DNA from: a bacterium
GTDB lineage: Bacteria; AUK180
DNA length: 6,795 nucleotides
Assembly: GCA_030622125.1 (NCBI GenBank)
Contig: JAUXGM010000119.1
Span: forward strand, 1-6,795
Direction of reading: 5' to 3'
Position numbers and translations under genes: made by a program
In this document: positions 196-4,774 of the stretch, piece after piece
Layout: the number at the start of each line of letters is the position of its first letter
Position numbering within the stretch: position 1 is the stretch's first letter
The notes under the pieces: model-generated
Seen by the model: only the letters and a program-made list of their open reading frames with translations
Databases searched by the model: none
Told to the model about the DNA's origin: nothing

Positions 196-390
196 TGTGT
201 CCCGGACTCTACATTAGATAACGATAGATCTCCCGAGAACAATATAGCCAAAGGAAATAGAATCAAAGGTTAAAAGAAAATGCACTGAAAACAGGCGGGA
301 CATACGTTGCTTGCATCGTGTGTCCCAAGACTCGGACTCTTCATTAGATAACAATAGACCACCCGAAAACAATATAACCAAGGGAAAAGA
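196..390. repeat. Composite dispersed repeat, copy A (two tail units around a hairpin)
   Basis: This segment contains a tail of about 60 bases (T1, about 204-262), a linker, a stem-loop at 297-326 and a second tail (T2, about 333-390). Both tails share CGGACTCT, then TTAGATAAC, then a CCGA(G/A)AAC block, then CAATATA. The same arrangement recurs at 3972-4213. Tail-to-tail spacing is about 129 bases here and 137 there, so each copy is a tandem dimer. Copy A starts with TGTCCC (198-203), the right arm of a hairpin whose GGGACA left arm is missing, so it appears 5'-truncated. No ORF explains it. Candidates are a MITE-like or REP-like palindromic element, or a structured RNA repeat. Confidence 0.8.
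297..326. repeat. GGGACA/TGTCCC stem-loop (copy A)
   Basis: The outer arms GGGACA (297-302) and TGTCCC (321-326) are complementary. The inner arms CGTTGC (305-310) and GCATCG (313-318) pair except for one T-T mismatch, leaving a TT loop. The joining bases TA and TG add one A-T pair and one G-T wobble. The equivalent hairpin at 4112-4141 carries its mismatches elsewhere but keeps the fold. Confidence 0.75.
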
Positions 391-3884: not shown

Positions 3885-3913
3885 GAGGATAGAGGCTCGA
3901 GGTTAGAGGTTAG
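3885..3913. repeat. GAGGTTA-type degenerate repeat
   Basis: Units close to GAGGTTA (GAGGATA, GAGGCTC, GAGGTTA, GAGGTTA) follow each other immediately after the membrane protein gene. No hairpin with a T-run is seen here, so no conventional terminator for the upstream cluster is evident before the composite repeat. Confidence 0.45.
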
Positions 3914-3971
3914 TAAAGAGAAAATAAGGGAATACGGAAAATAATATTAAATTCCGTACCCCCATAAAAGA

Positions 3972-4017
3972 GGGACATTACCTCAACTTTCTGATTTTTA
4001 AAGTTGAGGTGTGTCCC
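3972..4017. repeat. GGGACA/TGTCCC stem-loop with a different inner arm
   Basis: The outer arms GGGACA (3972-3977) and TGTCCC (4012-4017) are the same as in the other two hairpins. The inner arm is instead a perfect 10-bp stem, CCTCAACTTT (3981-3990) with AAAGTTGAGG (4000-4009), around a 9-base loop. Between the arms, A3980-T4010 and T3979-G4011 can also pair, leaving one bulged T. It is strong enough to stall polymerase, but no T-run follows on the + strand, so a terminator role for the upstream genes is only possible. Confidence 0.75.
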
Positions 4018-4111
4018 GGACTCTTCCTTAGATAACGATATACCTTCCGAGAACGATATAGCCAAATGAAATAAGTTCAAAGATTCAAAAGAAAATGCAC
4101 TGAAAACAAGC

Positions 4112-4141
4112 GGGACATTCGTTGCTTGCAACGTGTGTCCC
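4112..4141. repeat. GGGACA/TGTCCC stem-loop (copy B, second)
   Basis: The outer arms are GGGACA (4112-4117) and TGTCCC (4136-4141). The inner arm CGTTGC (4120-4125) pairs perfectly with GCAACG (4128-4133) around a TT loop. Only one T-T mismatch and one T-G wobble separate inner from outer arms. Confidence 0.78.
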
Positions 4142-4210
4142 AAGACTGTGTTCCGGACTCTTCCTTAAATAACAATAGAATACCCGAGAACGATATAATC
4201 AAGAGGAAAG

Positions 4211-4258: not shown

Positions 4259-4759
4259 CTACCTCTTGCTTTTCGCTTCTTTTACTCTTTTCTTTACTGC
4301 CTTTCTTATCATTGCTTTTTTTCTTGCTTTGTTAGCATCGAGAAAATGAAGTTTGAATTTTTCAAATTGTTCGGGTTTCAGAATTTCTTCAACTTGCTTT
4401 AAATGATCGAATTTTTTATACTTCATTTGAAGTTCGAGATCATTTATCTTTTTTAATACCGATTTGATCTTTGCATAATCGATCTTGTCTTCAAGAAGTA
4501 ATTCTTTGATAGTAATGTTTTCCTTTTGGATCTTTAATCTTAGCTTTTGACTTTCCTTATCAAGTTTCATTTTTAAAGCTTCAAGTTTTTCAAATTGCTT
4601 ATCCGTAAGATTTAAGAATTCCTTGACCCTATCCTGAAAATTAATCCTCTGCCCCTCTTGCATCTCCCTGGGTCCTTGACCATGACCGTGTTCTGCAAAA
4701 GTAAACACGCTTAGCATAAATAGACCAACCAACAATAGCACTTTCATCTTGCTTTTCAT
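4259..4759 (-). CDS. Spy/CpxP-family periplasmic protein (LTxxQ type)
   Basis: The 166-aa product has a Sec signal peptide (MKSKMK, hydrophobic core to FTFA at residue 22, likely cleaved before EHGHG). The mature part is almost all helical and highly charged. It carries two LTxxQ-like motifs: LTDKQ at 51-55 and LKPEQ at 127-131. This is the arrangement of Spy, CpxP and ZraP, periplasmic chaperones or sensors induced by envelope stress or metals. The HGHG segment after the signal peptide could bind metal (inference). The C-terminal 22 residues are more than half Lys/Arg, a very basic tail. Start: the ATG at 4759 follows GGAGGT in a hairpin loop; the GTG at 4765 lies within the Shine-Dalgarno and is rejected. 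It is monocistronic, convergent with the tdh cluster and divergent from the AlbA_2 gene. Its specific function is unknown. The Spy-like assignment is from motifs, not alignment. Confidence 0.75.
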   Translation of the reverse strand: MKSKMKVLLLVGLFMLSVFTFAEHGHGQGPREMQEGQRINFQDRVKEFLNLTDKQFEKLEALKMKLDKESQKLRLKIQKENITIKELLLEDKIDYAKIKSVLKKINDLELQMKYKKFDHLKQVEEILKPEQFEKFKLHFLDANKARKKAMIRKAVKKRVKEAKSKR

Positions 4760-4774
4760 AAGCACCTCCGCTTA
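4757..4774 (-). promoter_or_regulatory. Hairpin presenting the Shine-Dalgarno in its loop, at the Spy-like gene start
   Basis: On the - strand TAAGC (4774-4770) pairs with GCTTA (4763-4759) around the loop GGAGGT, and the stem includes the A of the start codon. Apart from one A deleted in the loop, it matches the element at 2761-2777. The shared sequence runs from ATTAAGC through GCTTATGAAAA. Confidence 0.6.

Follow-up and report, generated by a model that had tools for sequence, protein, structure and literature searches.

Dispersed GGGACA hairpins with exchangeable inner arms in a candidate-phylum bacterium are likely derived from the ends of TIRYT transposase units

INTRODUCTION

The described repeats closest to those reported here are associated with Y1 transposases. 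The ends of TIRYT genes have the sequence GGGGWSAS in common and form TIR repeat families (Di Nocera et al. 2013, PMC3733652). A 2018 survey (PMC6006769) found no REP-like sequences near genes of TnpA-Y1 subclass 2.1; it noted that proteins of this subclass have DnaA_C-like domains at the C terminus but did not decide whether these recognize the ends. The E. coli TnpA-REP reads the foot and the lower stem of the hairpin, whereas the role of the upper stem is structural and nonspecific (PMC8266576).

The DNA analyzed here comes from AUK180, a candidate phylum (Candidatus Uvuciota, PMC11382960). The window, that is, the whole stretch analyzed, comprises the 6,795 nucleotides of contig JAUXGM010000119.1 (assembly GCA_030622125.1) on the forward strand. 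It contains hairpins that belong to a real and abundant family of REP-like repeats, which, judged by comparison of sequences, most likely derives from TIRYT ends.

RESULTS

Hairpins of two types in the window

The three stem-loops that the initial annotation had described were located exactly at positions 297 to 326, 3972 to 4017, and 4112 to 4141 by a check of the sequence. They represent two repeat types, A and B, with differing flanking modules. The features of the two clusters are as follows.

196-280, forward strand: right half of a type A unit (TGTCCC GGACTCTACATTAGATAAC and following), left hairpin arm absent (direct repeat family D1; type A right-flank consensus)
272-296, forward strand: type B left module AAAAGAAAATGCACTGAAAACAGGC, kept in type B copies
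297-326, forward strand: type B hairpin; outer arms 297-302 and 321-326, inner arms CGTTGC 305-310 and GCATCG 313-318
332-390, forward strand: another type A right-flank module, behind the type B hairpin (direct repeat family D1)
3941-3971, forward strand: type A left module ATAATATTAAATTCCGTACCCCCATAAAAGA (consensus of 71 type A copies; a similar module, CCGTAACACAAGAAAAGA, occurs in the sister genus)
3972-4017, forward strand: type A hairpin; outer arms 3972-3977 and 4012-4017, inner arms CCTCAACTTT 3981-3990 and AAAGTTGAGG 4000-4009, loop 3991-3999
4018-4086, forward strand: type A right module GGACTCTTCCTTAGATAACGATA and following, joining the next hairpin (direct repeat family D1; right-flank profile)
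4087-4111, forward strand: type B left module AAAAGAAAATGCACTGAAAACAAGC (direct repeat; type B conservation)
4112-4141, forward strand: type B hairpin; outer arms 4112-4117 and 4136-4141, inner arms CGTTGC 4120-4125 and GCAACG 4128-4133
4142-4205, forward strand: type B tail AAGACTGTGTTCCGGACTC, continuing into one more type A right module (direct repeat family D1)

The first hairpin reads GGGACA-TA-CGTTGC-TT-GCATCG-TG-TGTCCC, with one T.T mismatch in its inner stem, and the third reads GGGACA-TT-CGTTGC-TT-GCAACG-TG-TGTCCC; the type A hairpin between them reads GGGACA-TTA-CCTCAACTTT-CTGATTTTT-AAAGTTGAGG-TG-TGTCCC. A 61-nt direct repeat, 95% identical, links the type B left module region at 272 with positions 4087 to 4147, and in the cluster at 3941 to 4205 an A module, an A hairpin, and an A right module are followed by a B module, a B hairpin, and another A right module. 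Short tandem words in intergenic DNA (TTGAACC/TTTGAACC and GAGGTTAGAGG) adjoin the hairpins at 150 to 191 and 3893 to 3915 and recur around many other copies. Elsewhere in the window, a twelve-base tandem repeat, TGGGGGAGTAAA, lies within an open frame at the contig end (6736 to 6795; GGVN repeats), and a perfect 17-base inverted repeat, GGAGGTGCTTATGAAAA (2767 to 2783 and 4753 to 4769), coincides with the ribosome-binding sites and starts of two genes that are unrelated and lie on opposite strands.

A dispersed, mainly intergenic family

The pattern GGGACAN{4,34}TGTCCC was found at 121 places per strand in the host draft genome (G000; 2,079,618 bases in 192 contigs), while the reversed-pattern control gave 0 and a rough composition-based estimate put the chance expectation below 1; thus, the hairpins are not a product of chance. 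GGGACG...CGTCCC occurred at a further 20 places, 19 of which were variants of the same or a related kind of hairpin. As in classical REP families, copy number is high and position mainly intergenic: among 108 distinct hairpins read in their genomic context, 99 lay outside open reading frames of at least 100 amino acids, although such frames cover 71% of the segments examined. One hairpin (at 350 to 380 of L195, contig 44 of the host) lies within the open frame L195:3-899 of a low-complexity Glu/Lys-rich protein.

Type A, to which the hairpin at 3972 to 4017 belongs, was read in 71 copies; its left module ends in CCGTACCCCATAAAAGA, which precedes the hairpin, and GGAYTCTTCNTTAGATAAC follows on the right, the right module running from GGAYTCTTCNTTAGATAACGATA to CCCGAGAACAATATAGCCAA. 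Type B, with the hairpins at 297 to 326 and 4112 to 4141, has the left core GAAAACARGC and the tail AAGACTGTGTCCCGGAYTC and occupies 23 places genome-wide, or 29 copies read if every AAGA-tailed copy is included. Modules are mixed between types, and further types carry the tails GTCTAATG or GAGGCGACCAAGG. The feet of the hairpins are AAGA or ARGC at the left and GGAY or AAGA at the right.

Two genomes of the sister genus (G001 and G004) had 53 and 51 places matching GGGACAN{4,34}TGTCCC, mostly GGGACATGTCGTACGCCGCAGGCGTTCGTCTGTCCC and its variants, with inner arms unlike those of the host. Some of these copies keep the left module CCGTAACACAAGAAAAGA and a GGAT tail; their inner arms have thus been replaced, with conservation of the outer arm and the foot. 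In sister-genus loci (L070, L071, L123, L124, and L130), a second hairpin stands behind the GGGACA hairpin; its arms are, for instance, AGCAAAGAGTT and AACTCTTTGC, and its inner sequence is exchangeable. Two other related genomes, G002 and G003, had 6 places each, and in G003 the control likewise gave 6. Among the genome contigs scanned, only one other species record, again from AUK180, contained the exact type B hairpin, and a scan of viral contigs with the type A pattern yielded no more than two scattered matches.

Pairing is kept while the inner arms change

The initial annotation had proposed, from three hairpins, that the outer arm stays constant while the inner arms vary and still pair. 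This holds for many unrelated inner sequences in two genera. Copies without inner pairing might have been expected among the others had the structural reading been spurious; in a folding test of 82 distinct hairpins from five genomes, most distinct inner arms paired better than dinucleotide shuffles, with z scores of about -4 to -8 for most type A arms without an inner mismatch. A minority of inner arms, for example, TTCCTTGCAGAGTGG and TTCGTTGTTTGCGTCGCG, folded no better than shuffles. The paired fraction was 92.5% in the sister genus and 94.9% in type A, compared with at most 46 and 58%, respectively, in slid versions. Double-sided changes were seen in both sets: of 24 distinct sister-genus sequences, 17 have G-C at one pair, 6 have T-A, and 1 has A-T, and of 11 type A sequences with the unchanged loop CTGATTTTT, 6 have TTT/AAA and 5 have AAA/TTT at three adjacent pairs. 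These counts come from related, amplified repeats and hence are not independent events. Pairing across unrelated inner arms, together with these double-sided changes, makes a constraint on the structure of the hairpins plausible.

Mutation rather than selection could also keep the arms paired, if template switching at quasi-palindromes copied one arm onto the other and the insertion of nested palindromes replaced the inner part. Other palindromes do sit inside the stem in three hairpins (C21, C34, and C50); C21 reads GGGACGTACCTT-CCCGTATCTAATACGGGATAAACT-CCGAAGGTGCGTCCC, and in C146 a B-type hairpin lies inside an A-type arm, so that the second suggestion of the initial annotation, palindromes inserted into palindromes, is true for some copies. 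The TTT/AAA swap is a multibase change of the kind typical of template switching, and the process is compatible with an origin from transposase ends. However, many copies retain mismatches that have not been corrected (CTCATC/GTTGAG in type A), and template switching leaves unexplained why the GGGACA outer arm is conserved across genera and in transposase ends. We therefore regard it as possible but rather unlikely to account for the pairing. As for the claim that the structure and not the sequence is under selection, the part that stands is that pairing survives double-sided changes, a pattern that correction by template switching could produce as well.

DNA element or structured RNA

Pairing kept through double-sided changes would also fit a structured RNA, in which pairing is selected in the transcript and the copies have spread as terminators, mRNA stabilizers, or riboregulators. 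The 34 hairpins with assessable neighbors lie between convergent genes in 16 cases, tandem genes in 12, and divergent genes in 6, as elements downstream of genes would, but mobile REP families have the same downstream placement in the literature (PMC3733652). Within tandem gene pairs the orientation is mixed (7 same versus 5 opposite), the hairpins are not followed by a T run, and the predicted folding energy is alike on both strands. An Rfam search of the hairpins returned no family match, and a tRNA search gave no match either.

One copy, moreover, lies inside a protein gene. The host mnmG (L050:1069-2937, contig 30) carries an in-frame insert of 22 residues that consists of a B-like hairpin and its left module, and the mnmG genes of five related genomes (G001, G002, G003, G004, and G005) lack it. 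As far as the aligned genes can tell, this presence and absence speaks for the insertion of a single unit of about 66 bp, whose precise boundaries, like any duplication of the target, are blurred at this divergence. With these observations against it, an RNA function as the reason for the family is very improbable, and the evidence points to transposase ends acting at the DNA level.

Y1 transposase genes and their ends

The host genome has four Y1_Tnp genes (C73, C140, C141, and C172), coding for about 280 to 295 amino acids and confirmed by Pfam in a check that covered six Y1 proteins. The host proteins show HUH-type motifs by eye and a C-terminal similarity to helix-turn-helix domains that is mostly below the Pfam curated cutoff. 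Inverted ends bracket all four genes, imperfectly in the case of C172.

C73 unit end: GGGGACGGTGGTTGCAAAAGTTGCA
C140 unit end: GGGGACGGTGGTTAGTTT(g/a)ATTAGTTTA
C141 unit end: ATGGGGACGGTGGTAGAAAAAGTAGAAAAATT
C172 unit (contig 172) ends: TTAGGGACACACCTCGC on the left; GCGAGGGGCGTCCCTAA / TTAGGGACGCCCCTCGC on the right

The C73, C140, and C141 units have perfect or near-perfect inverted ends of 25 to 32 bp that start with GGGGACGGTGG. A relative of C172 in G002 is syntenic, adjoining the same downstream GTPase-like gene, and has perfect 17-bp ends, with TTAGGGACACACCTCGC on both sides. These contain GGGACACACCTC, which is the reverse complement of GAGGTGTGTCCC, the 12-nt right arm of the type A hairpin (4006 to 4017); GGGACACACCTC stands at both ends of the G002 unit and at the left end only of C172. 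Two features of the TIR repeats of TIRYT units were thus found: the genome that carries the hairpins also has Y1_Tnp genes between terminal inverted repeats, and a dispersed repeat has the sequence of Y1-unit ends, in the form of GGGACACACCTC in type A hairpins. One hairpin, C8, reads GGGACACACCTC-T-GCGAGGAATGTCCC and resembles the C172 ends minus the gene. Type B and the sister-genus types have only the outer GGGACA in common with Y1-unit ends, and these 6 nt of outer arm are all that is common to every hairpin type.

Across diverse genomes, an inverted GGGACA...TGTCCC bracket within 160 bp was present at 16 of 29 Y1 loci of about 220 amino acids and on one side only at 7 more; the corresponding figures for loci of the longer type were 0 of 29 and 2 of 29. 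Units of the longer type have inverted ends of their own, which start with GGGGACG or GGGGTCA. In one genome (G039), two complete GGGACA hairpins flank a Y1 gene, and at a separate locus (L101, 1104 and 2009) direct copies of TTTTGTCCCTAACGGGACAATAGCC flank a Y1 gene of the IS200 type.

Complete hairpins of the window type were not found in the fetched flanks of the family Y1 genes, nor did we find a Y1 gene with the GGGACAGACG ends of the sister genus; the host assembly is a 192-contig draft in which many contigs end near hairpin repeats, so a hairpin-flanked Y1 gene could be missed. Classical REP elements flanking a RAYT gene were considered as an explanation and ruled out: hairpins do not flank the family Y1 genes as repeat copies, the arms being common only to C172 and its G002 relative; neither a GTAG nor a CGTC tetranucleotide marks the palindrome foot; and copy number does not track the number of Y1 genes, G002 having 13 Y1 matches and 6 hairpins. 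A chance likeness, with the hairpins belonging, as MITE-like or attachment-site elements, to an unrelated transposon or recombinase (a DDE transposon or an integron-like integrase), would suit the shortness of the common outer arm and the family Y1 genes that carry no complete hairpins, but the 12-nt identity with the ends of the C172 and G002 units and the recurrent GGGACA brackets of Y1 genes elsewhere are unlikely to be accidental, and we give this explanation the least credence of all.

Direct repeats inside the ends of longer units

In Y1 units with proteins of at least 245 amino acids, protein length serving as a proxy for the C-terminal domain, 32 of 50 distinct ends held an exact direct repeat of at least 5 nt with a spacing of 6 to 10 bp, nearly always 7, 8, or 9, compared with 3.4 on average and 9 at most in shuffled ends. 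A second, independent set taken alone gave 14 of 26 ends versus 1.0 in shuffles. Because the ends were found by inverted match, identity between left and right within a unit is partly built in, but the direct repeats are not. Their sequence varies from unit to unit (L019, L020, L021, L217, and loci L199 to L361). A constant spacing of 9 bp, like that of DnaA boxes, was tried and given up, since 60 independent loci yielded 7 and 8 as well. Among units below 245 amino acids, 2 of 16 ends held a direct repeat, and both (L229 and L231) belong to genes with a full frame of about 290 amino acids. A spaced direct repeat in the variable inner part is thus a new and usual feature of the ends of units with longer proteins, and units of about 220 amino acids lack it.

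DISCUSSION

We consider it likely that the hairpins are short, gene-less REP-like elements of a TIRYT/RAYT Y1 (HUH) system and that their outer arm represents the terminal inverted repeat found on either side of such transposase genes. An element of this kind would consist of two transposase-unit ends set back to back, with the gene replaced by a short loop, and would fold on one DNA strand. The Y1 transposase would then recognize the foot and the outer stem (the GGGAC arm) of the folded single strand, cut it, and rejoin it; we propose the reading of these parts because of the analogy with the E. coli TnpA-REP. The upper stem may mainly need to pair, which would allow its sequence to drift or to be replaced, including by the insertion of other palindromes. 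The candidate enzyme is the product of the C172 Y1 gene, whose unit ends have the GGGACACACC arm in common with the hairpins, or else a relative of an enzyme since lost. What the sequences themselves show is the repeat family, its paired inner arms, the in-frame insert that is present or absent in mnmG, and the 12-nt arm at the ends of the syntenic G002 Y1 gene; recognition of the single strand, mobilization by a C172-type enzyme, and selection on pairing are steps that we infer.

The direct repeats suggest a more tentative extension, to which we give somewhat less than even weight. The ends may be a two-part address: the Y1 domain would read the conserved outer GGGAC[A/G] or GGGTCA, and the C-terminal helix-turn-helix domain would read, and coevolve with, an exchangeable inner direct repeat with a spacing of 7 to 9 bp. 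The swappable inner arms of the hairpins would then be footprints of changes of address. Separate recognition by the catalytic and the C-terminal DNA-binding domains is a possible reason for the combination of a conserved outer arm with an exchangeable inner arm. With inner direct repeats in the ends of longer-protein units and their absence from 220-amino-acid units, the role of the C-terminal domain becomes directly testable. The analysis also links a dispersed hairpin family of a barely studied candidate phylum to TIRYT transposases.

Comparison with known systems

The present system has Y1 transposase chemistry and subterminal hairpins in common with IS200/IS605 elements and their PATE derivatives, but the ends here are inverted repeats, and we found these hairpins in no complete IS200/IS605 element. 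With Rickettsia palindromic elements the hairpins share the presence of a short palindromic repeat in frame inside a protein gene, although the sequence is unlike and one clear in-gene case (mnmG) was examined here. The likeness to the REP/RAYT systems (REP, BIME, and REPIN) is broader and includes abundant intergenic imperfect hairpins, a composite arrangement, a Y1 gene in the genome, and a conserved lower stem below a variable upper stem and loop; here, however, the foot carries no GTAG/CGTC tag and the Y1 genes are bracketed by inverted ends instead of complete repeats. TIRYTs resemble the present system in having a Y1 gene between inverted repeats with a G-rich, GGGGWSAS-like start (PMC3733652; subclass 2.1, PMC6006769), solo copies of the ends that form dispersed families, some of them self-complementary, and C-terminal helix-turn-helix or DnaA_C-like domains. 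The family described here differs from them in that its copies are hairpins of ends paired end to end, with many exchangeable inner stems and composite modules, in a candidate phylum.
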